Shown here piece by piece: positions 1 to 50,494 of a stretch of 50,494 bases of DNA (position 1 is its first letter; every line of letters starts with the position of its first letter). The DNA comes from a virus. Location of the stretch: IMG/VR virus record IMGVR_UViG_3300020020_000046, positions 1-50,494 of that record. One strand, 5' to 3'. Position numbers and translations under genes: made by a program. The notes under the pieces were generated by a model. It searched no databases. It was not told where the DNA came from and saw only the letters and a program-made list of their open reading frames with translations.

Positions 1-3000
1 CGAGCGGGCGTGATGGTGGCGCTGGCCAGCTCCGCCTTGTAGCCCTCCTGCTGACTGCGCCATTGGGCGGCGTACTCGGCGGCGCTGAACTTCGGCTCGG
101 CGACACCGGTGATCTCCGACAGGGTCCGCGCCCCGGGCTCGGCCGCCATGGCAACGGCCGGCCCGGGGGCGGGTGGGGCCTCGGCTGCGGGGGCAGCCGG
201 GCGGTCGATGAGCTGTCCGCGGAACACGCCCCAGCGCGATCCGACCTTGGTGACGCCGTAGATGCCGCCGTCCGCCCGCAGCTCCTTGGCTGCAGCGACG
301 GCTTCCTTGCGAGTGCGGTGCTTCGAGAGCGCCGGCTCCGGCCAGGCGACCTCGTCGGCGAGGATCGCGGCATCGCCGCGGGTGGTGATCCGCCGGTGCT
401 CGGCGTCGAGCGTCGCAAGGACGGTCTCCTGCCGGGCCAGCCGGCCCTCGGCCTGCCGGACGGCCGTGTCGACCGCGGCCTGATCGAGCGCCTGCGCCAC
501 GCCGGTCGCCTCGAGCGGCAGCGAGCGCCAGTTGTCGAGTGGCACCTTGCCCTTGCCGATGGTGCGCGTGCCGAGCACCTTGGCGCGCTCGAGGAAGTCG
601 GTCACCTCGCCGGTCAGCTGGCGGGTCGGGCTGCGGTCAATGATGCCGGCCAGGCTGCGGACCTGCTCGCGCAGGCCATCGAGCGTGTCCGCGGCCGTCT
701 CGGCGCGCGCGGTCAGCGCGTCGACTGTTTCACGTGAAACCACGGCATCATCGCCGAGCACGTCGCGGACCAGCGAGGCGTACGTCGTCTCGAGGTCGCC
801 GAGCTCCGTCAGGCGGCGCTCCTGCAGCGCGTTCGCGCCCTTCCACCCGGCGGCGATCGCCTCGCGCAGCGGCGGGACCCTCTCGAGCGGATGCGCCAGC
901 GGGTCCGACAGGATGGCGAGGCTCTCGGGCGTGATGTCGACGTCGACCGCGGGCGCCAGCGCCTCGATGATGGCGACGTCGGTCGCGCGGAACCCCTCGG
1001 CCTCGACGACGTTGGTGCCGATGGCCGACGTCACGATGCGCAGCTCGCGGGCTGGGTCGTCGAGCCACGCGGCGGCCTCGTCGACGAACGCCGACAGCGC
1101 AGCGTCGCGCTCCACGGCGATCGCGGCCGCCGTGGCGCCCGGCTTCTCGTCGGCCCGGTACGGGTGCGTGAGCGCATCGCGCAGGCTTCGGAAGGCCTCG
1201 GCGTCGAGCGCCCCCTCGAGCTCGCCGCCGTAGCGGTCGCCCATGATGTGCTCGAGCCTGTCGACGAGGTCGAGCGCCTCGCCGCGCTGGATCGCTGAGT
1301 CGTACATCCGGCCCCACCACTCGCTCACCCGCTGCCATGCGAGGTCGGGCTTCGTCTGCACGTCACGCTCGGTCATCCGATAGACGGCGTTGAGGACCTT
1401 GGTGAGATCGCCGGAGACGGGCCCGGTCAGCTCCTCGGGCGGGGTGTCGAGCAGCTTCGCCACCGTATCCTGGCGGAGCTTGAACGCCTTGGCAATGGCC
1501 AATCGGCTCTCCGCCTCGTGCGGCCGGATGGCCGGCACGGCCTCGGTCCGCGGGCGGGCAGCCGACAGGTCCGCCGACGCCTGCTTGGCCATCGCCGAGT
1601 CGAGGATGCCCTCGAGCTGGCGACGGGTGATGCGCGGGGCCCGTCCGCCGCGGCGACCGAGCGCCCCGGCCTTGTATTCGATGATCGAGGGCACGCCCTG
1701 GCGCAGCTGGTTGAGGTCCCGGGCGCTGACGACGTCGGTCGGCTTGTAGTCGGTCTCGAGCCGGGCCCGGAACTCGCTCACGAACGTCGTGTTGACGTCC
1801 GGCCGCAGCGCCACGACCGCGGCCTCGTGAACGTCGCCGGCCCGCTTGCTGGCCTTGATCCATGCCGTCAGGTTGACCAGCGACGTGTAGCCGTCGTACT
1901 CGCCGATGAAGCCCTCCGCGCCGAGCTCGCTGGCGTCGGTGATCTTGGCGCGCTCCCAAAACTCGGTCTTGATCGCGTCGGCGATGGCATCGGCATCCTT
2001 GCCCCGGCCGGTCAGCGCCGACTGCAGCAGCTTGATGCCCTGCTCGTGGTAGGCGGTCCAGAACGCCTCGTTGCGGGTCACGACGTCGGCCTCGGCCTCG
2101 AGGAACCGCAGGCGCGGCTCGTTGCGTTCGCGGACGACGTGCATGGCGACGTGCAGCAGACCGTTCTTGAGGTCGCGTGTCGAGAGCGGTCCGTCCTCGC
2201 CGTACAGCCGTTCGAGCGCGATCGGGTCCCAGCCGAGCTTGTCGCCGACACGCTCGCGCAGCACGTCGAGCGGCATGTCGGCGATCGAGCCGAGATTGCG
2301 CGCCGCGACCGGGCTGACGTCGAGCTCGGGGCCACCGAACAGCTTGACTGACGCGCGCTCCTTGGCGCCGGTGTAGATGGTCTTGGCCGTGCGCAGGGGG
2401 TGGACCGCGAAGCCATCGACGAGCATCAGCCCCGGGTTGTTGGACAGCGGCATTTCCCACAGCCAGCGGTCCATCATCACGACGCCCTCGTCGTAGCCGG
2501 CCATGTCGAACGCCTGCTTGAGCGCCCACTCGCCGGTCCGGATGCCGGAGCCCGCGATAAGTGACAGCCGGTTGGCCTTCTCGAGCCCGTAGCCGATCGA
2601 CTTGAAGCCGCGCCAGGCACGCGGCAGGGACCACGCTCCGACGAACTCCGCGGTCGGGATGGCCCGCCCGACGAGACCGGCACGCTCGAGGCTGACCCAC
2701 GTCTCGGCCACCCGCCCGACGGCGGCCGCGGTCCGCGTCGGCCCGGCGATCGCGGCGGCGGTGCCCGCGCCGATGTTGCCGAGCTGCCCGATGCCACGCG
2801 CCACGAAGCCCGTCCCCCGGACGAGTCCGCCGCCGACGAGCAGCGGGGCGATGTTCACCGACAGCTCCGCGAGGAGGTTCAGCCCCGGGTCGTAGCTGAA
2901 CGGCTCGCCCACGACGAGCTTGTTGATCTGCTCGTCGGTGATGTCCGGGTTGTCGAAGATCGCCTGCACGGCGTCGGGGCGCAGGTCCCACAGCTCCGCG

Positions 3001-3830
3001 ACCATGTCGAGCTCCGACAGCCCCGCCGCGGCTGCCTTGGCCCTGATCCCCTCGAGGTTGTATTTGCTCGAGTCGAACCGATTGATCGACCGCTCGATGA
3101 GGCTGCCGCCGGTCGAGCCCGTGCGGGCGATGTCGCGCACGAACTCCGCCCGCCGCTCGGCCTCGGTCGAACGCGCGAAGTCGTTGAGCGCGATAAACGG
3201 CGCGCTGATCGCGTCGCCGACGGCCCCGACGCCGTCGATGATGTTGTCCAGCACGTTGCCGAAGTCACCTTCGGACAGGTTCTCGAGGATCGCCTGGTCG
3301 TTGACCGGGCCCGCGGGCTTGGCGTACGGATCGGTGCTCACCGGCTGCTGGTAGTTGTGGCCGAGCGCGCTGGTGATGAGCGACAGCGGCGCCTCGCGAG
3401 CGTAGGTCGCGAAGTTTTGCGCGTTGATCGGCGTCGTCGCGAGCCCGATGGCGCCGACGCCCGTGTTGACCTGCATCGTCCCGCCGCGCTGGCCGGGTGG
3501 GGTGCCGAGGAGGAACTGCCCGGGGGCACTCTCGGCGAGGCCCGAGATCGACTCGCCGAGCAGGTTCACGTTGTAGCGCTGGGGCGGCCCGGCCGGGCTG
3601 TACGCCGCCTGGCTGACCCGCCCGACGGCCGGAGCGAACGCGCTGTATTGCTGCCCGCCGGTCCGCTCGGCCAGCCGGTTGTAATCGGGCAGCGGCTTCG
3701 CGTCGCGGTAACGCAGGTTGGTGAAAAAGGCGTCGAGCGACGCACCCGCATTGGCCATCGGCGGCTTGCTGGTCGTGCCGGCATAGCTCTGATAGGCGGC
3801 GTCGTAATCGTCGAAGTAATCGTCGGTCAC
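1..3830 (-). CDS. N-terminal part of giant polyvalent virion protein, open at left edge
   Basis: From a GTG at 3830 (VTDDYFDDYDAAYQSYAG) 1,276 codons run without a stop to base 1. The GTG overlaps the TGA of the gene before it as GTGA. The protein is mostly helical and charged. Residues about 315-360 form a Gly/Ala-rich hydrophobic stretch (LLAELSVNIAPLLVGGGLV) that could touch or cross a membrane, and a short domain near 1190-1205 (IYGVTKVGSRWGVFRG) precedes a Pro/Ala linker. Collapsing the shared end 7-mer joins it in frame to 44808-50494, giving about 3,169 aa. Portal lies upstream and scaffold downstream, the slot often used by MuF or protease genes in phages. A role as an internal protein ejected with DNA is inference. 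No catalytic domain is recognised in this half. The continuous frame is certain; function is not. Confidence 0.9.
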   Translation of the reverse strand, partial: MTDDYFDDYDAAYQSYAGTTSKPPMANAGASLDAFFTNLRYRDAKPLPDYNRLAERTGGQQYSAFAPAVGRVSQAAYSPAGPPQRYNVNLLGESISGLAESAPGQFLLGTPPGQRGGTMQVNTGVGAIGLATTPINAQNFATYAREAPLSLITSALGHNYQQPVSTDPYAKPAGPVNDQAILENLSEGDFGNVLDNIIDGVGAVGDAISAPFIALNDFARSTEAERRAEFVRDIARTGSTGGSLIERSINRFDSSKYNLEGIRAKAAAAGLSELDMVAELWDLRPDAVQAIFDNPDITDEQINKLVVGEPFSYDPGLNLLAELSVNIAPLLVGGGLVRGTGFVARGIGQLGNIGAGTAAAIAGPTRTAAAVGRVAETWVSLERAGLVGRAIPTAEFVGAWSLPRAWRGFKSIGYGLEKANRLSLIAGSGIRTGEWALKQAFDMAGYDEGVVMMDRWLWEMPLSNNPGLMLVDGFAVHPLRTAKTIYTGAKERASVKLFGGPELDVSPVAARNLGSIADMPLDVLRERVGDKLGWDPIALERLYGEDGPLSTRDLKNGLLHVAMHVVRERNEPRLRFLEAEADVVTRNEAFWTAYHEQGIKLLQSALTGRGKDADAIADAIKTEFWERAKITDASELGAEGFIGEYDGYTSLVNLTAWIKASKRAGDVHEAAVVALRPDVNTTFVSEFRARLETDYKPTDVVSARDLNQLRQGVPSIIEYKAGALGRRGGRAPRITRRQLEGILDSAMAKQASADLSAARPRTEAVPAIRPHEAESRLAIAKAFKLRQDTVAKLLDTPPEELTGPVSGDLTKVLNAVYRMTERDVQTKPDLAWQRVSEWWGRMYDSAIQRGEALDLVDRLEHIMGDRYGGELEGALDAEAFRSLRDALTHPYRADEKPGATAAAIAVERDAALSAFVDEAAAWLDDPARELRIVTSAIGTNVVEAEGFRATDVAIIEALAPAVDVDITPESLAILSDPLAHPLERVPPLREAIAAGWKGANALQERRLTELGDLETTYASLVRDVLGDDAVVSRETVDALTARAETAADTLDGLREQVRSLAGIIDRSPTRQLTGEVTDFLERAKVLGTRTIGKGKVPLDNWRSLPLEATGVAQALDQAAVDTAVRQAEGRLARQETVLATLDAEHRRITTRGDAAILADEVAWPEPALSKHRTRKEAVAAAKELRADGGIYGVTKVGSRWGVFRGQLIDRPAAPAAEAPPAPGPAVAMAAEPGARTLSEITGVAEPKFSAAEYAAQWRSQQEGYKAELASATITPA

Positions 3831-16067: not shown

Positions 16068-16192
16068 GCCACCATGCTCCGCTGCCAGGCGATGAGACAG
16101 CCGCGCAGCTCGGCAACCGACTGGCGGCGCTCGTAGTAGGCGTGGCCCATCCGGTTCGCGTAGCTGCAGGCCACGGCACGCGTCTCGGTCAT
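16064..16192 (-). CDS. Very small protein, 42 aa
   Basis: ATG at 16192 (MTETRAVACSYANRMGHAYY) and TGA at 16064 each form an ATGA overlap with their neighbours, and codon use matches the genome. The peptide is amphipathic with two Cys and a basic stretch. No function is visible. It lies directly downstream of the initiator-like gene, so a link with replication is possible but unproven. Confidence 0.75.
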   Translation of the reverse strand: MTETRAVACSYANRMGHAYYERRQSVAELRGCLIAWQRSMVA

Positions 16193-16707
16193 CGTGGGTC
16201 CCCGACCTTTGACATCGAGCTCTTGGCCCCCCGGCCCTCGCGCGCGCCCCCGGGAGGGGCCGAACGACCAATAGGAACGGTAGAACTCTCTGTTTGTGTT
16301 TGTGTTTTCGTTGGCATGGGGTCTAGCATCGGTTGAGCATCGCTTGGAGCATTGCCCGGAGGAATGCTCGGAGCATCGCTACCAGCATTGCTACGAGCAT
16401 CGTTGAGGTTGCCCCAGCGGGCGTCAGCGGCCCGGCTGGCCTTGTCCTTCGCGGCCTCCCTCGAGGCGTCGACGATGGCCAGCCGGTAGCGGTCGCCGGT
16501 GACGGTCAGCAGGCCGTTCATCAGCGCGAGCTGCTCGTCATCGACCCAGCGCGGGATCGACGGCGCGAGCGGCCACAGCGCGTCGGCCTCGAGGTACAGC
16601 AGCAGCCAGGCGCCGAGCGCCGCGCGATCGGCCCGGAGCGGGGCGTAGCGCTCCTCGGTGAGCACCTCGCGGGGCACGATGACAAAGCGGCGGTCATCCT
16701 TCGCCAC
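16189..16707 (-). CDS. Lambda-O-like replication initiator candidate, 172 aa
   Basis: GTG at 16707. The N-terminal 95 residues (FVIVPREVLTEERYAPLRAD, ALGAWLLLYLEADALWP, DEQLALMNGLLTVTGDRYRL) have the look of a winged-helix replisome organiser, followed by a helix rich in Ala/Arg (KDKASRAADARWGNLND). Then comes a four-residue repeat (SNAG, SDAP, GNAP, SDAQ) encoded by the iteron-like DNA, then an AT-rich coding stretch (PTKTQTQTESS) and a basic tail. Phage replisome organisers such as lambda O bind iterons inside their own gene; that is known of the family. Here the structure is visible in DNA but the protein family is inferred. No helicase loader is seen nearby. Confidence 0.65.
   Translation of the reverse strand: MAKDDRRFVIVPREVLTEERYAPLRADRAALGAWLLLYLEADALWPLAPSIPRWVDDEQLALMNGLLTVTGDRYRLAIVDASREAAKDKASRAADARWGNLNDARSNAGSDAPSIPPGNAPSDAQPMLDPMPTKTQTQTESSTVPIGRSAPPGGAREGRGAKSSMSKVGDPR
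16270..16314. other. AT-rich stretch beside the iterons, possible unwinding element
   Basis: About 60 percent A+T by hand count over 45 bases, far above the rest of the window, with T-rich runs TGTTTGTGTTTGTGTTTT on the plus strand. It adjoins the iteron cluster on the side toward the gene's 3' end, as the AT-rich unwinding region adjoins the iterons in the lambda origin. The role is inferred. Confidence 0.6.
16324..16406. repeat. Seven tandem 12-bp iteron-like repeats
   Basis: On the plus strand seven units run head to tail: an 11-bp first unit (TAGCATCGGTT), then GAGCATCGCTTG, GAGCATTGCCCG, a decayed GAGGAATGCTCG, GAGCATCGCTAC, CAGCATTGCTAC and GAGCATCGTTGA. The core AGCAT(C/T)G is kept in six. 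The period is about one helical turn. The codons used here (GAT, GCT, AAT, GGT, CGT) end in A or T, against a genome that otherwise prefers G or C, so selection seems to act on DNA as well as on protein. Confidence 0.8.
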
Positions 16708-31763: not shown

Positions 31764-33593
31764 CTACTTCGTTGGCTTGCCGACGGTGTCGGCGATCATC
31801 CAACCGTTGTTTGGCGACCAGCGCCCGTAGACGCTGATCTCATCCCCGCGTTGCAGCCAGGGCTCCTCGAGGGAACCGATCTGACTGTCGATGTCGTCGG
31901 ACAGCCCGATCATCACGAGCTCCCCGGTCGTCTTGTGGAGGACGCGCAGCACGGCCACGGGCGTCTTGCCGCGAACGACGCGCTGGATATCGTCGTACAG
32001 GGTGCCAAGCACGAGCTCGTACTCGCCCGGCTCGCCCGTCCGCTGGGGCGGCTTGTCAGAGTCCGCAGGTTGGTCCGTAGATGTCGGCGCAGGCTTCGAT
32101 GGCTCGGCGGAGGTCGGCGGCGCTGAGGCTGCCGCCTCCGGCGAGGTGCTCGGGGGGGATGCCGGCGAGGAGGGCTCGGCCGACGGCTGCGAGGTAGAGC
32201 CAGCGATAGGATCGGCAGGCGTCGACAAAGACTGGTCGAAGGGCAGCTCCGGCGCCGCCGTCTTGACGCTGACCCAGGCGCCGTCGCGACCGACCTGCAC
32301 GTCCTCCATCATGTACGTCGGTGGCGGGCCCCACACTTCCTTGCGGGTCGGGACCTTCGGGTCCTCGCTCCATACGATCTCCTCCACCACGATCCCGACG
32401 AGCCTGACGGCATCGCCGATTTTGATGCCGAACATCGCCGCGGCTTCGGCCAGCGGGCCGAAGATCATGGCCGTGTGCTTGCGATTTCCGACCTTGCCGA
32501 TGATCTCGAGCTTCGAGCGCGGGCCCTCCCAGCGCTTCTCGGTGTGGCCGTCGCGGACGGTGCGTGCGCCCGAGTCGGGCTGCTCCGCCACGACGATCGT
32601 GATGTCCGGTGGACCGCCCTCAAACGGCCCCTGCGGCTCGCTACTACCCGATCGGCCCGATTGTGCCGCTCCACCCCCGTTCTGCCCGCCACGGCCCGCG
32701 TTCGGGCGCTGGCGCGATCCTGACGCATCCCCGCCGGACCGGCCGGAGCCCGGCTGGCCGTCACCTTCGTCGTCGTCCATGTCCTGCGTGAACAGGCCGG
32801 AGCTCGCGGTCCCGCGCAGGACGGCGTCGACGTTGGCCCGCTTCTCCGCCATCTTGAGCAGGGTGTTGAGCAGCTCGTGGGGGTCGACGTTCTCGAGCTT
32901 GCCCGGGTCCTCTTGGTCCTCGATCTCGCCCGTGCCGGCCGGGAAGTTCGCGCCGCAGCCACCGTCACGCGGACCGCACCACCAGCTCTTTTGGCCGGGC
33001 GGCAGCTCCCGATCGCGTGGAGACGTGATGACGGTGTCGGCGCCGCACCGAGGGCAGGTTCGACCCTTCGCGCCGCGGTAGCGGTAGCGCTTCTCCCACG
33101 AGCTCGAGGCGCCCATGCCCTGCGCGATGACCGGGCCGTCGGTCGAGCCCAGGTGCAGGAAGCAGTCGACGACGACGAGGATCGGCGGAGCGGTCTCGTT
33201 GTCGCCGTAGCGGATGTGGTGCTCGAACGAGCTCACGAGGCCGTAGGCCAGCGCGAGCTTCTCGGCGCCGGGCTTGAGCAGGGTCGGGGTCTTGGTGCCC
33301 GGGATGAGGCCGTAGTCCTCGTCCTCGTCCATGATCTCGAGCTTGACCCGCTTCGCCCGCTCGACGCCCTTCTTGAGCATCGTGAGGTTGCGCTCGAACT
33401 CGATGTCGGACATCGCCGCCAGCGCCCCGACGCCGACGGCCACGTGGCCGCGGGTCGGGGTCGTCGGCTCGACGGTCGCCAGCGCGCGGGGCGGGTCCTC
33501 GGGGCCCGAGTCGTCCGCGGGCGGGGTGACGTCCTTGGCCTCGCCCGGGACGATGACGGTGCCCTCGGTGGGCTTGGCGGTCTTGCGTGGCAT
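31764..33593 (-). CDS. DYGLIPGT-motif DNA-metabolism protein, 609 aa
   Basis: ATG at 33593 overlaps the previous TGA by one base. An N-terminal disordered part precedes a conserved block at residues 93-111 (DYGLIPGTKTPTLLKPGAE) and a zinc ribbon (CPRCGAD with a later WWCGPRDGGCG). This combination occurs in phage proteins of uncertain function that often sit near nucleases and recombination genes, and may be single-strand-annealing-like. A Pro/Ser/Thr-rich linker (about 455-515) leads to a small beta domain (VRGKTPVAVLRVLHKTTGEL) of possible OB type. The next genes upstream and downstream support DNA processing. The functional label is a guess. Confidence 0.75.
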   Translation of the reverse strand: MPRKTAKPTEGTVIVPGEAKDVTPPADDSGPEDPPRALATVEPTTPTRGHVAVGVGALAAMSDIEFERNLTMLKKGVERAKRVKLEIMDEDEDYGLIPGTKTPTLLKPGAEKLALAYGLVSSFEHHIRYGDNETAPPILVVVDCFLHLGSTDGPVIAQGMGASSSWEKRYRYRGAKGRTCPRCGADTVITSPRDRELPPGQKSWWCGPRDGGCGANFPAGTGEIEDQEDPGKLENVDPHELLNTLLKMAEKRANVDAVLRGTASSGLFTQDMDDDEGDGQPGSGRSGGDASGSRQRPNAGRGGQNGGGAAQSGRSGSSEPQGPFEGGPPDITIVVAEQPDSGARTVRDGHTEKRWEGPRSKLEIIGKVGNRKHTAMIFGPLAEAAAMFGIKIGDAVRLVGIVVEEIVWSEDPKVPTRKEVWGPPPTYMMEDVQVGRDGAWVSVKTAAPELPFDQSLSTPADPIAGSTSQPSAEPSSPASPPSTSPEAAASAPPTSAEPSKPAPTSTDQPADSDKPPQRTGEPGEYELVLGTLYDDIQRVVRGKTPVAVLRVLHKTTGELVMIGLSDDIDSQIGSLEEPWLQRGDEISVYGRWSPNNGWMIADTVGKPTK

Positions 33594-34570
33594 CAGTCGG
33601 GGTCCTCGGCATCAGGGTCGGCGAGCTCGATCTCGGGCAGCAGGTTCTCGACCTCGAGGAAGTCGTGGATGCGATCGTAGTGCTCGCTGAACGCGGACAG
33701 TGTCGCCTGGCCGTCGGCCTCGAACTTGGCGCGCTCCTCCCACTTGTCCGTGTCGATGTGCGGCCGGAGTCGCTCGGTGATGAGCGCCCGCAGGACCCTC
33801 GGCGGCAGGGCGTCGAGCTCCCAGCTCTCGGTGCCGTACTGGCTGATGTAGCCCGCCGCGCGGCTGTCGGTGATCTTCGCCGGATTGGGCGGCGGGTTGT
33901 ATTGCTCGACCTGCGGCATGTTGAGCGCGATCCGCTCGACGGTCAGGTCGGACGAGTTGTAGCTGTCGCCGTCGAGGAACAGCTCGAGACGGGCGGTGAT
34001 GTCGCGCGTCATGTCGATGCCCGACGGGTCATGGTCGCCGAGGTGCAGGATCGTGACCTGCTCGACATCGTCCTCGTCGAGATAGCCCTCGATGCGCTGC
34101 GCGGCCGCCCACACCTCGCTCGCCGACGTGTAGCCGCGGCAGGAAAAGAACGGGGTCCGCAACGGATTGGCGGCCCGCGCGACGACGTCGACCAGCGCGT
34201 CCTTCTCGACCCACACCTCGACGCGCTCCGGCTGGCCCTCCCACAGCGCGGCGTAGAACGCGAGGTCCTGCACGACGACCTTCGGGTCGCTGTCGGCGCC
34301 GTCGCCCCCGCGCACGTTGCGGGTCCGGTCGGTGATGCTCGTCCAGTCGACGAGCCCGGCGTAGCGGGCATTGTTGATGATCCCGCCGAGGCGCTTGTAT
34401 TCCTTGTCGTCGTTCGGCAACCATGCCTTCGAGACGAACTGGTAGTAAAGCTGGCGGAGGCTCAGGGTGTCGCCACCGGCCTCGATCTCCTCGATGATCT
34501 CGTTGGCCTGGTCGACGATGGCCAGATGGGCCGCGGGGAGCCGGATGTCACGGTAGGCGATCTTCGGCAT
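33593..34570 (-). CDS. Spo11/TopoVI-A-like TOPRIM protein, 325 aa
   Basis: ATG at 34570 has AGGAGG six bases upstream. Residues 36-43 (LSLRQLYY) match the 5Y-CAP winged-helix motif whose Tyr attacks DNA in TopoVI-A and Spo11. The TOPRIM part has the acidic positions VEKDA (121-125) and LGDHDPSGID (177-186), the D-x-D metal site. The length is near the 300-400 aa of single-gene 'mini-A' relatives described in mobile elements, with no TopoVI-B ATPase gene here. It would make or religate double-strand breaks, or act in replication. The catalytic residues are present in sequence; activity is unproven. Confidence 0.85.
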   Translation of the reverse strand: MPKIAYRDIRLPAAHLAIVDQANEIIEEIEAGGDTLSLRQLYYQFVSKAWLPNDDKEYKRLGGIINNARYAGLVDWTSITDRTRNVRGGDGADSDPKVVVQDLAFYAALWEGQPERVEVWVEKDALVDVVARAANPLRTPFFSCRGYTSASEVWAAAQRIEGYLDEDDVEQVTILHLGDHDPSGIDMTRDITARLELFLDGDSYNSSDLTVERIALNMPQVEQYNPPPNPAKITDSRAAGYISQYGTESWELDALPPRVLRALITERLRPHIDTDKWEERAKFEADGQATLSAFSEHYDRIHDFLEVENLLPEIELADPDAEDPD

Positions 34571-44807: not shown

Positions 44808-47800
44808 TCAGCCGCCGGGGATCGTCGTCAAGGTCTCCGTCGGCAGCTCGTACTCGGCCTCACCCATGACGCGCTGGTTCTCGGCGTCGATCTCCGACGT
44901 GACCGGCGCCTCGGGCTTCTTGCGACCGATGGTGATGGACTGCGGGAAGAACGACTGCAGCTGCTCCTTGGCCCCCTCGGGCAGCCCCTCGAGCAGCCCG
45001 CCGGCCTTGGTCTGCTCGGCGATGAGCCGCGGCACGAGCGACAGGTTCGTGTAGATGGGCCCCACGCCGAAGATGCCCTGGCTGCGCTCGTAGTCGGGGT
45101 ACAGCATCATCCGGGTCCACGGCGACATGCTCACGCCGAGCTCGGTCGGAATGATCGGCAGCAGCATCCCGGCGATGAAATAGAGCGTCTTGTTCGCGGC
45201 GAACCCCGCCCGGTAGCGCTCGTCGGCCACCCAGCGGCGGCGATGCTCGTCGTAGACGTGCTGGAACGCGCCAGCGACCGACGCGCCGGTGTCGACGCCC
45301 GCGGCCTCCTCGAACATGAACCGGGCCAACCACTTCGTGGCCTTGATCTGGTAGCTGATCGGCCAGAACAGCAGGGGGTGGTTCGCGAGGCGCTGGATGT
45401 TGCTCCGGTTCTCCTGCCCGAAGAAGGTCGCCGTGAGGTTGTGGAACAGGTCGGCGTTGACCGCCGCCAGCCGGTCCAGCAACCCGGCCATCGCCGGATC
45501 GGCCGTCCGAGCGAGCTCCGCGTCGATCGCCGGGTGCGCGCTGTAGCGGCGAGCCTTGACGAACTCGCCGAACGTCGTCTCGTCGATGACCCCGTCGCGC
45601 AGCCAGCGCCCGAAGAACGCCTCGGCCTCGCCCACCGTGGCGAACTCCTTGGTCCCGCGCTCGAGCAGCTGCCAGTCGCGGTCGAGCCGGTCGAGGAACG
45701 CCCCGACGTCGCCGCCATCGCTCTCATCGACCATCCGGCGCAGGCCAGGCTCCTCGCGCATCATCGTCTTGACGATCTCGCGGAACGGGCGGCGCTGCTC
45801 GCGCGACAGCTCGGCGGTCATGTAGCGGTGGCGGACCGCGGTGCCTTGCTCGAGGTCGGTCACGTTGGCCCAATGGGCGTACTCGCGGAAGGCGAGCTGC
45901 TGGGCATCGATCCCAAACGCGAGCGGCTGCGAGGTCGACTCGGTCAGCTCGGCCCGGTCGGCGGAGCGCAGCAGCTTGCCCGACTTGCGCGCGACCGACG
46001 CCTCGAGGACCGGGCCCACGCCGCCCCGCGGCAGGGTCAGCATCAGCGGCTCGATCGCCTCGAGGGCCAGCCAGCGGATGTCGGCCAGGAACCGGACGGC
46101 GTGATAGAGCACGGTCATGTAGCGCCCGGTGCCCTCGCCGAGATCGGCGGCCTTGCCGTACAGCACCTCGAGCTTGCGCGAGATCGGCAGGTCGCTCTTG
46201 AGGACGAACTGGCGAACGCGGTTGTCGGCGCGCCGCCACAGCTTCGCCGGGCTGGTGCCGTTGGCGGCGATCTCCGTCCGCCATTGCGGGACGTTCTCGC
46301 CGTAGACCTCCTTCATCGCGTTGTCGAACATCCGGTTGAGGTTCTCGGGCCCCATGAGCGCGATCCGGCGGTACAGCATCTTGCCCGCGACCTGCACCGC
46401 CTCCTGATGCTCGCGCCACAGCTCGAACGAGCGATCGACGACCTTGCCGACCCGGTCGAGCTCACCGATGTCGACGCCCGCCTCGTCGACGTACTTCGCG
46501 ATCTCATCGCCGAAGCGAGCGACCGCCTGGGCCCTGATCTGCTGCTCCGGTCGCGGCCCGGCGATCGTGTCGAGAATCCTCGCGATGCGGCTGTTGCCGA
46601 CGCGCCGCGGGATGTCCTCCATGCGCCCGACCTGCAGCTCCTCGGTCAGCCCCGGGACGAGGTCGCCGGCGAAGCGATCGCGCCACAGGATGCGCGGCGC
46701 CAGCGACGTGCCCGCCGGGCCCTTGGGCGGCTTGGCCAGCACGTACTGCGCACCGAGGAAGCCCTCGATGACCGGCAGGTCCGGGTCGACCTTCACGACC
46801 TCGGCGAGATCGTCCATGACGACCTTGATCCGGTCCTGCAGACCCTCCGCGTCAAAGTCGTTGACCGGCGTGCCGAGCTTGGCCGCGAAGCGGCTCTGCG
46901 CCCGGACGCCCTTGCGCGTGATGGCCTCCTCGAGCGTTCCGTTGGCCAGGCGCATGAGGTGGGTCCGCAGCTGCATCGCCTCGGGCGGCGTGAGCCCGAT
47001 GCCGGTGGTCGGGTCGGCGTACACGCCCCGGTCGATGCTCTCGATGGCATCCATGACCGACGCGAGCCCGGTCGGCTCAACGCTGCCGATGGCCCCGGCC
47101 AGCTGGTCGACGTCGGAGCCGCGCATCAACCGATCCCACATGCCCCGCGTCTCGTCGTCGGGGAACACGCTGGCGCGCTCCTCGATGGCCGGCTGGGCGG
47201 TACGCGCCTCCTCGACGGCGGCGCGGGCAGCCTCGACGTCGGCGAGCGCCTGCAGACGATTCTGCTCGATGCGCTCGGCCATGACGCGAGCGTCGGGGGC
47301 GTGGACCTCGTACACGCGGCGCTGTCCATCCTCGACCGCAGGCGCCCCGACGGCCCGCCTGACGGCTCGGTTCACCGTCGGGTTGTCTCCGACGATGACG
47401 GTGTGCTCGGCCGCAGCCATCGCCTCGGTCACGGCCGGCACGTCGACGTCGAACGCCACGTCCGGCCCGACGTCCTCGGCGAGCTGCTCGCGAGTCAACG
47501 GCTTCTGCGGCTTGGGCTTGATGACCTTGGCCTTGCGCTTCGCCAGCCAGGCGTCCGTCTCGGCGCGCGTCGCCTGATCAGCCTCGACCCGGGCCCGGAG
47601 CACCGCGAGCTCGGCGGTGTCCTTGGCCGTCGGCGCGAACCGCTTGCGCAGCCCCTCGAGCTGGGTCTCCCACCCGCTCGGGTGGTCGTTGGTGAGACGC
47701 ATGTTGAGCTTGCCCGCCGCGTTCCGCCGGAACCCGCCGCCGAGGGCATCGAGGAACAGCAGCTCGGCGGGCGTCGCCGATCCGTCGTTGGCCGACTCAA

Positions 47801-50494
47801 GCAGCGCCCGGAAGAAGTCATGCTGCTCGGGCGTGAACGGCGTCCAGTTCTCGTAGGGCGGCTCGGCGTAGGTGTTCTTGAACGTACCCCACGTGTCGGC
47901 GATGTCGCGGACCTCGGCCTCGAACGCCGGGTAGTCGACCCTGGCGCCCTCGTCGATCGCGTCGAACGCCGGGTCGCCCTGCTGCACGAGCGGGTCGTTG
48001 TCTGCGGTGCGCCGCACGACCTCCGCGTCGACCTCGTCTGCCGCGAGCGGCTGCGACATCCGTGCAGGGCCCTCCGTGGTGCCGATGACCGACTCGCTGA
48101 TGGCCGTGCCGAGCGGCACGTCGTAGGGCGCCTCGGTGCTGGGGAAGTAGTCGATCTCGGCCTTGCCGGTCGCGACGCGCTGGATGTTCCACGCCCGGAC
48201 GCCCTCGTTGAGCATCCCCGTGTAGTCGCGCTCGGGGATATCGGCGAACATGAGCTCCTGCCCACGCGCCGGCGCCTCGAGCGCGGCGTCGGCCGTGGCC
48301 CGCATGAACTCGCGGACCTCACGCTGCGTGGCGCTCTGCGCGAGCAGCTTGGCCAGGTGGGTCTGGACCGGGGTCAGGGTCATGCTGTCGAACGCCGTCA
48401 CGTTGTCGAGCGCCTGCAGAACGCCCTCCATGCTCAGGCCGGTCCCGCGCAGCTCGACGATGCGGGCCAGCGCCGGGGCGAGATCGTCGCCGAAGGTCAG
48501 GATGTCGGGCCCGATCGCGCCCTCCTCGGCACGCTCGTATGCCTTGATGACCTGCGCGGTCCCCTCGGCCAGTCCGTTGCTGATGCGCTTGATCTCCTCG
48601 CCCGCCTGCTCGGCCACCTGAAACACGACGATCCGCGCCGACTCGAACCCGGGCGAGGTGCGGTCGTCGGCGCGCAGCAGCTTCGAGATCAGGACCGCCT
48701 CGAGCAGATTGGCACCCTGCTCGTTGAGCCCGGTCTGCGGGTCGAAGTAGCGGCTGTGCATGTCGAGCGGCAGGCGACCGATCATGCGCGCCACGGCGCC
48801 CGTGTTGCCGGGGGCCCGGATGGCCGCCGCGAGGCTCTGCTCGGCGCCGACGTCGAACTCGCGGATGTCCGCCCGGGTCAACGCCGCGGCCACCGACGGG
48901 GCGAGGTCGGCGATCGGCATTTCGTTGAGCTGCCAGGCAAGCCGCTCCATCAGCGGCCCGTCGGCGTCGACGAGCTCGCGAACCAGCATCGGGCGGCCCA
49001 TCGCGTTGACGTCCTCCACGGCGATGCCATACTTGCCCGCCTCGGCCTGGATGCGGACCTTGTAGCGGCCGAACTGCTCGCCCGACGCGAGCCGCAGGGC
49101 CATCGTCCGGCCGTTGCCGGCGATGACCGCCCCGTCGGCGTTGACGATCGGCATACCCGACCCGCCCTCGGTCACGCCCACGAGCTTGTCGGGCTGGATG
49201 TCGGCCGCGTAGCGCTGGACCTGCTCGGCGCTCGACGCCCGCACGCCGCGGGCCCGGGGCTGCAGCTCGCGCGGGAACCCGGGCTCGTCGCTGGTCAGCA
49301 GGTCGGCCGCGTCGACGAGCACCACCCGCGACCGGATCGGCGTCCGGTTGTCGGCCGGATCAAGGAACGTGACATCCGTCGTCTGCGGGCCGACGTCGAC
49401 ACCCTCCTCGAACCCGTGCGAGGCTGGGTCGACCTTGCGCTCAGCGTACTGCGCTCGGCGCTCGAGCAGCGCGGCGTTGTCCGCCTCGAACTGGCGGCCC
49501 TGCGCCTCGACCTGGGCCTCGCGGACGCGCTGGGCCTCGGTGATCTGCTCGACGATGGGGAGCGGTGGCGGCTCGGCGCCGCGGCTGACCAGCTCCGCCT
49601 GCAGGACGCGCTGGGCCGCGATGGCGCCGTACTCCTGCCTCGCGATGGCGTCGGCGATCTCGTCGTCGGACCAGCCGCGAGCGAAATAGGCGAGCTGCTT
49701 GTAGCCCGCCTCGGCGTCCTGCACGGACCCGGGGTACTTGATGAGCTGGCCCTCGGCGTCGCGCGGGATGCCGCGCCGCTCGAGCTCGGCGTCGAGGAAC
49801 GGCTTGTCGTGCTTGGCCCGGGCGACGCGGTCGCGGAGGTCCTCGGTCTGCTTCTGCGTGAAGTCCCGCGCCGCGGCCTTGGCGCCCTCGATCGTCGAGT
49901 AGCGCCCCTTGCCGGGCGTGTCGAGCGGCGCCTGGCCACTCTGGTCCGCCTTGTTGAGCGCATCGGTCGTGTAGGTGTAGTACGCCGGCACGGCCGGGAT
50001 GACGCTCTCGCCCTCCGGCCGCATCGCGAGCTCCGGCTGGGCCTTGACCTTGACCACCTTGGGCTTGTAGTCGGGGACCGCGTCATCGTCGTAGCGCGCC
50101 AGCCCGTCGGCCCGGACAACGAGGTCGTGCAGGTTCGAGTCGGGCACCTGGTCGAGCCGATCGACGGGCAGGTGCTCCCAACTGTAGCCGCCCTGCAGCC
50201 GTTGCGCGTCGAGTGATGCGCTCTCCGCGAGCGCCTCGAACTCGCGGGGCGTCCATTGGCGCGCGAACCCGCGACTCGCACGCACCGGGCCGGGCTCGCC
50301 CACCGGGCCGCCGGGACGCTCAGGGCGCGACAGCGGCGCCGGGGCGGCCTCGGGCACCGCTGCAGGGGCTTCCGGGGCAACAGGGGCCATTTCTGACGGG
50401 CGTGGGGCCTCCTCACTGGCCGCCAACGCTTCGAGCTCGGCGACGGGCGGCTCCTGCTCCGCTACGTGCTGCTCGAGGAACTTGCGTCGAGCGG
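44808..50494 (-). CDS. C-terminal part of giant polyvalent protein, open at right edge
   Basis: The frame is open at the right edge; the TTG at 50426 is not a start, since the frame continues upstream and no ribosome site is present. Joined with 1-3830 it makes about 3,169 aa. Near joined residue 1,734 a motif GNGRTMALRLASGEQ follows 'IVNADGAVIAG', the ddrB-like ParB domain seen in polyvalent proteins of phages and conjugative elements. Long helical stretches follow. Near the C-terminus an aromatic 'LFWPISYQIKATKWLARFMF' and a hydrophobic segment FAANKTLYFIAGMLLPIIPT lie close together. Such proteins are thought to be injected and counter host defences. Function beyond the ParB-like domain is inferred. 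Confidence 0.9.
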   Translation of the reverse strand, partial: ARRKFLEQHVAEQEPPVAELEALAASEEAPRPSEMAPVAPEAPAAVPEAAPAPLSRPERPGGPVGEPGPVRASRGFARQWTPREFEALAESASLDAQRLQGGYSWEHLPVDRLDQVPDSNLHDLVVRADGLARYDDDAVPDYKPKVVKVKAQPELAMRPEGESVIPAVPAYYTYTTDALNKADQSGQAPLDTPGKGRYSTIEGAKAAARDFTQKQTEDLRDRVARAKHDKPFLDAELERRGIPRDAEGQLIKYPGSVQDAEAGYKQLAYFARGWSDDEIADAIARQEYGAIAAQRVLQAELVSRGAEPPPLPIVEQITEAQRVREAQVEAQGRQFEADNAALLERRAQYAERKVDPASHGFEEGVDVGPQTTDVTFLDPADNRTPIRSRVVLVDAADLLTSDEPGFPRELQPRARGVRASSAEQVQRYAADIQPDKLVGVTEGGSGMPIVNADGAVIAGNGRTMALRLASGEQFGRYKVRIQAEAGKYGIAVEDVNAMGRPMLVRELVDADGPLMERLAWQLNEMPIADLAPSVAAALTRADIREFDVGAEQSLAAAIRAPGNTGAVARMIGRLPLDMHSRYFDPQTGLNEQGANLLEAVLISKLLRADDRTSPGFESARIVVFQVAEQAGEEIKRISNGLAEGTAQVIKAYERAEEGAIGPDILTFGDDLAPALARIVELRGTGLSMEGVLQALDNVTAFDSMTLTPVQTHLAKLLAQSATQREVREFMRATADAALEAPARGQELMFADIPERDYTGMLNEGVRAWNIQRVATGKAEIDYFPSTEAPYDVPLGTAISESVIGTTEGPARMSQPLAADEVDAEVVRRTADNDPLVQQGDPAFDAIDEGARVDYPAFEAEVRDIADTWGTFKNTYAEPPYENWTPFTPEQHDFFRALLESANDGSATPAELLFLDALGGGFRRNAAGKLNMRLTNDHPSGWETQLEGLRKRFAPTAKDTAELAVLRARVEADQATRAETDAWLAKRKAKVIKPKPQKPLTREQLAEDVGPDVAFDVDVPAVTEAMAAAEHTVIVGDNPTVNRAVRRAVGAPAVEDGQRRVYEVHAPDARVMAERIEQNRLQALADVEAARAAVEEARTAQPAIEERASVFPDDETRGMWDRLMRGSDVDQLAGAIGSVEPTGLASVMDAIESIDRGVYADPTTGIGLTPPEAMQLRTHLMRLANGTLEEAITRKGVRAQSRFAAKLGTPVNDFDAEGLQDRIKVVMDDLAEVVKVDPDLPVIEGFLGAQYVLAKPPKGPAGTSLAPRILWRDRFAGDLVPGLTEELQVGRMEDIPRRVGNSRIARILDTIAGPRPEQQIRAQAVARFGDEIAKYVDEAGVDIGELDRVGKVVDRSFELWREHQEAVQVAGKMLYRRIALMGPENLNRMFDNAMKEVYGENVPQWRTEIAANGTSPAKLWRRADNRVRQFVLKSDLPISRKLEVLYGKAADLGEGTGRYMTVLYHAVRFLADIRWLALEAIEPLMLTLPRGGVGPVLEASVARKSGKLLRSADRAELTESTSQPLAFGIDAQQLAFREYAHWANVTDLEQGTAVRHRYMTAELSREQRRPFREIVKTMMREEPGLRRMVDESDGGDVGAFLDRLDRDWQLLERGTKEFATVGEAEAFFGRWLRDGVIDETTFGEFVKARRYSAHPAIDAELARTADPAMAGLLDRLAAVNADLFHNLTATFFGQENRSNIQRLANHPLLFWPISYQIKATKWLARFMFEEAAGVDTGASVAGAFQHVYDEHRRRWVADERYRAGFAANKTLYFIAGMLLPIIPTELGVSMSPWTRMMLYPDYERSQGIFGVGPIYTNLSLVPRLIAEQTKAGGLLEGLPEGAKEQLQSFFPQSITIGRKKPEAPVTSEIDAENQRVMGEAEYELPTETLTTIPGG

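Follow-up and report, generated by a model that had tools for sequence, protein, structure and literature searches.

The orphan gene at positions 16189-16707 (minus strand) of the virus record analysed here (50,494 bases, 70% G+C; hereafter the window) probably encodes a phage replication initiator and carries the replication origin within the stretch of its own sequence coding for a flexible linker, a reading to which we assign a probability of about 0.78. The block concerned, an iteron array and an adjoining A+T-rich stretch, most likely works as an initiator-embedded origin of the lambda O type. This reading is well supported by constraint at the level of DNA, a genome-wide stability minimum, an order and polarity of elements resembling those of lambda, and a layout common to the related phage G032 and to annotated initiators. 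The first-pass annotation had described the gene as initiator-like, a description with which its layout and probable position relative to the terminase gene agree and which homology does not support; since the protein has no detectable homologue, we infer the initiator identity of the gene only from that layout and position.

The open frame starts with GTG and encodes 172 amino acids; it is taken to be open and coding because GC3 is 0.95 across the first 100 codons, compared with 0.38 in the array, 0.30 in the A+T-rich stretch and 0.80 in the tail. Along the coding (minus) strand, an orphan N-terminal domain is followed by the iteron array, a run of ACACAA and the A+T-rich stretch. The N-terminal domain (residues 1-100; 16408-16707, minus strand), presumed to bind DNA, has a charged helix at its end and matches initiator N-terminal domains in order and position, and the protein stops at residue 172, about 30 residues past the hexanucleotide tract. 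The gene probably lies upstream of the terminase gene.

Several other features of the window were recorded. The sequence CGAGCGG occurs at both ends (1-7 and 50488-50494). If the ends overlap by these 7 bases, the ORF truncated on the left (3-3830, minus strand) runs in frame into 44808-50492 (minus strand), and the window may be a whole genome in circularly permuted form that contains a single ORF of more than 3000 codons. Next to the capsid genes, an ORF of very large size (44808-50426, minus strand) contains a ddrB-like ParB domain (PF18763, E=4e-23), and a topoisomerase-like protein (33593-34570, minus strand; phrog_6247, E=1e-96) has 111 relatives in IMG/VR, in contrast to most genes of this phage.

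The array (16325-16402, plus strand) comprises six exact copies and one degenerate copy of AGCATYG in 78 bp, placing multiple iterons, as in lambda-type origins, within the gene of the candidate initiator. Exact copies start at 16325, 16336, 16348, 16372, 16384 and 16396 (plus strand), with the degenerate copy, AGGAATG, at 16360; the steps are, in order, 11, 12, 12, 12, 12, 12 nt. The initial count of seven 12-bp repeats was thus nearly right, the 12-bp unit standing and the first step being one base short, and the coordinates confirm that the repeats and the A+T-rich stretch all lie within the gene. Across the seven copies, unit positions 1, 2, 4 and 7 are invariant, positions 3 and 5 each differ in a single copy, and positions 10-12 are more variable. 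Elsewhere AGCATYG occurs 19 times, unclustered (101 kb, both strands).

The repetition exceeds chance expectation. The self-match of the gene at lags 8-25 was reached in none of 5000 dinucleotide shuffles; because a repetitive peptide could itself impose repetitive DNA, codons were also redrawn from the phage's own usage with the protein held fixed. Under this synonymous resampling, p was 0.006 for the whole gene at its best lag and 0.005 at lag 12 when only the array was considered. The core, a motif picked post hoc from the sequence, was counted six times, whereas 100,000 resamplings averaged 0.68 and never exceeded 3. A plain count of exact 7-mers gave a weak result (p = 0.08). When 8-mers were counted over the whole gene, one mismatch being allowed, it ranked first among the window genes tested (p=0.01), this being a weak statistic that leaves several known initiators unflagged (p=0.085 for lambda O).

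Codon choice and reading frame place the constraint on the DNA and not on the peptide. All five alanine codons in the array are GCT, a codon accounting for 4.7% of alanine codons phage-wide, and the copy at 16325-16331 (plus strand), lying 11 and not 12 nt from its neighbour, preserves the same DNA word in another frame, so that it encodes a different peptide (PMLD vs. APSD). The preference of the repeats for codons ending in A or T, noted earlier, agrees with the fall of GC3 in the array, and the proposal that the DNA itself is constrained is borne out by the GCT codons and the shifted frame.

The array adjoins the least stable DNA of the genome. Scanned for nearest-neighbour stability along its full length (sizes of 30, 45, 60, 80, 100, 130 and 150 nt), the window has its minimum at 16189-16707 for all seven sizes, with starts at 16261-16279. 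The whole low-stability block (array plus A+T-rich stretch, 16261-16420) is the least stable 80-150 nt, and the A+T-rich stretch itself (16267-16314), the probable DNA unwinding element, the least stable 30-60 nt, so that an easily melted element of the kind found in lambda-type origins lies directly beside the array. The 45-base stretch of about 60 percent A+T noted at first pass was recovered at 16270-16314, where the value of 60% is the maximum for 45 nt anywhere in the window. Beside the iterons lies a hexanucleotide tract, (ACACAA)n (16291-16307, minus strand), which encodes TQTQT and is the only perfect period-6 run of at least 17 nt in the window.

A C-run/C-run/G-run, CCCCTCCCGGGGG (16247-16259, minus strand), lies 3' of the A+T-rich stretch and may be a third element; it is similarly placed in five other initiators (nd4, SspJY42, ScYong805, Hali and G021). 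C-runs a few bases apart, usually followed by a G-run, were also noted at L120:1461-1475 and in the linkers of nd4, SspJY42, ScYong805, Hali and Lagaffe; those of initiator linkers sit just past the AT-rich stretch, in differing reading frames. A palindrome is not supported as the third element, the GC-rich segment 16215-16275 folding no better than shuffles. No DnaA box (TTATNCACA or TTGTNCACA, within one mismatch) was found between 15.5 and 17.5 kb, where an iteron plasmid origin would have such boxes near its iterons, and Rfam yielded no match. GC skew, a check named beforehand, follows the direction of transcription and is uninformative on the origin.

The same plan, in other sequence, occurs in a related phage. 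G032, an IMG/VR record of 46,675 bp, has structural genes colinear with those of the window (identities of 63% for the portal, 59% for the terminase and 71% for the capsid), and its contig terminates in an ORF (L099:8270-8674) that weakly matches phrog_2447, ‘replication initiation protein’ (E=0.004). The terminase gene lies at the opposite contig end; if the G032 genome is circular, the initiator-like ORF would therefore lie upstream of the terminase gene, as in the window. Its linker carries GGAGTCC at 10-nt steps (frames 0, 1, 2, 0), followed by (GAGGTA)n up to the contig end; iteron sequence, spacing and frame differ from those of the window, and the plan is the same. The contig breaks off within the (GAGGTA)n tract (L099:8645-8675), and hexanucleotide tracts may break assemblies precisely at phage origins. 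The G021 initiator, which matches phrog_2447 at E=1.5e-7 and adjoins a DnaC-like gene, has a repeat at 11-nt steps through all frames.

The order of domain, repeats, and tract or AT-rich stretch recurs in MaeJY24, phi297, Ostro, Hali, D14L, CF418P1, QDWS and Harrison, and in lambda O. In the annotated or homologous initiators from INPHARED (MaeJY24, phi297, Ostro, D14L, Hali, CF418P1 and QDWS), linker repeats, as judged from words picked by eye gene by gene, are out of codon phase, and a perfect hexanucleotide tract often follows them. Over 17 phage genomes (0.84 Mb), which are non-independent, several being interrelated and chosen by initiator similarity, there are 17 distinct perfect period-6 runs of at least 17 nt, nine of which fall within the initiator gene, about 2% of the sequence. 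A linker that is also the stability minimum of its genome is particular to the window; in the other initiators it usually is not.

Constraint on DNA by itself would fit an operator as well as an origin, and the array might instead be an operator or a centromere-like (parS-like) site for a regulator or partition protein that lies within the gene by chance; 8 bp direct repeats do serve as parS in extrachromosomal actinophages (PMC7157519). We consider this unlikely, however, as the scans found no ParA/ParB partition pair, the ddrB-ParB domain belongs to a very large ORF in the structural-gene region, and both the coupling of the array to the least stable stretch and hexanucleotide tract and the layout common to annotated initiators favour an origin. 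The odds are also poor that the repeats are a feature of the protein, a low-complexity A-x-S-D/N linker that arose by tandem duplication and whose DNA has no function. Of the six steps, five measure 12 nt, a whole number of codons, the peptide is repetitive, and dipeptide repeats are encoded by the hexanucleotide repeats as well; yet the array retains rare synonymous codons and has one repeat in a different frame, and the repeats of G032, G021 and MaeJY24, spaced 10 or 11 nt apart, pass through every frame, which means that the peptide cannot be the repeated unit there. Least probable is a patch richer in A+T that was acquired recently or derived from the host, with no selected site: GC3 does fall sharply inside a gene where it is otherwise 0.95, but the fall is limited to the linker, and the repeats, hexanucleotide tract and AT-rich stretch match other initiators in order and polarity.

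Searches with the protein returned no relative in Pfam, PHROG, PDB, INPHARED, PLSDB, IMG/VR or GTDB contigs, and neither a separate search of these databases with the N-terminal domain nor a degenerate DNA pattern for the most distinctive motif of the protein gave anything usable. Profile comparison of the N-terminal domain with those of initiators was not significant, the phrog_2447 profile did not match the gene, and AlphaFold models built without an alignment were of low confidence (pLDDT 49 and 44), too poor for searching. Homology to the lambda O family was likewise not found (no Pfam or PHROG match, and no tblastn match to an INPHARED initiator), and the C-terminal domain through which lambda O recruits the helicase loader is absent, the protein having ended. 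No close relative carrying the gene was found; the terminase, portal and capsid have few relatives, and three of those of the terminase end before reaching it. The gene is thus, by sequence, an orphan and an unusually short candidate initiator.

PHROG and Pfam scans of the large ORFs, together with a Walker-A scan whose strict pattern divergent ATPases would escape, yielded neither a polymerase or primase nor a helicase or its loader, in agreement with the initial statement that no DNA polymerase, helicase or primase was seen. By the tests run, the gene product appears lambda-like as a working principle and belongs to neither the O nor the phrog_2447 family; the label of a lambda-O-like origin given at first pass therefore holds for the principle and fails for family membership, there being no C-terminal domain and no recognisable helicase-loading gene of the O/P type.

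In the mechanism that we propose, copies of the protein would bind the AGCATYG iterons, which are spaced by approximately one helical turn, and the array so occupied would help to melt the neighbouring ACACAA/A+T-rich stretch. Replication would start here, with host helicase and primase loaded onto the opened strand, the use of host enzymes being proposed because no phage-encoded ones are recognisable. Recruitment of the host helicase is the least certain step, given that neither a helicase or loader nor a primase or polymerase is recognisable in the phage and that the protein has no C-terminal domain.

The origins of most metagenomic phages are not known, and the window offers a precise candidate in a genome whose other replication genes are unrecognisable. 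This suggests that, even where the initiator protein has no known relative, an origin may be recognised from features of the DNA, namely iterons that depart from the codon phase, a hexanucleotide tract and a stability minimum.

Origins embedded in phage replication genes are already known, and the origin proposed here adds one in an orphan, short candidate initiator. In lambda, the positive control, in which iterons are annotated inside gene O, the origin consists of iterons followed by 40 bp of A+T-rich DNA (PMC5043065). As in the window, the iterons lie mid-gene with some 40 bp of A+T-rich DNA on their 3' side; by contrast, the O protein is unrelated by sequence, possesses a C-terminal domain and has P as its partner gene, and the lambda iterons are 18-19 bp long, with inner symmetry, at steps of 20-24 nt. 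The phrog_2447 initiators (for example Roseburia phage Shimadzu orf46, Paenibacillus phage Harrison gp65 and G021) share an N-terminal domain followed by a linker in which the members seen here, by no formal definition of the family, have DNA repeats together with either a simple tract or an AT-rich stretch, but they have C-terminal domains and DnaC-like neighbours, and the window protein falls outside the family profile. Initiators of the phi297/Ostro/Hali type, from Pseudomonas phages, resemble it in their GC-rich genomes and in linker repeats that lead into a perfect hexanucleotide tract of GGGACA or GGGAGA, and differ in their length (330-370 aa), their C-terminal domain and the adjoining helicase, loader or primase/helicase genes. 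In Paracoccus phage Pben1 (L137:1570-1800), the 206-aa putative replication protein has no linker repeats and the intergenic stretch after it is rich in CTGTAAT/ATTTCAG-like repeats, so that its origin perhaps lies beside, and not inside, a short initiator gene.

An origin within a replication gene has also been suggested for mycobacteriophage repA (PMC7157519), and Francisella phage KIRK has a predicted iteron origin inside its replication gene fhv_0043 that has been likened to lambda (PMC7924643); the latter, likewise a prediction only, differs from the window in its AT-rich host and its Phg_2220_C-type protein. It is conceivable, though somewhat short of probable, that many unrelated phages share a modular plan in which the origin is written into the linker, as genome-specific iterons, a hexanucleotide repeat, AT-rich DNA and often C-runs with a G-run, the hexanucleotide tracts surfacing in the proteins as dipeptide repeats (such as TQTQ, GQGQ, TGTG, PEPE and VEVE); the window would then represent its minimal form, with the helicase-recruiting domain lost or never present.
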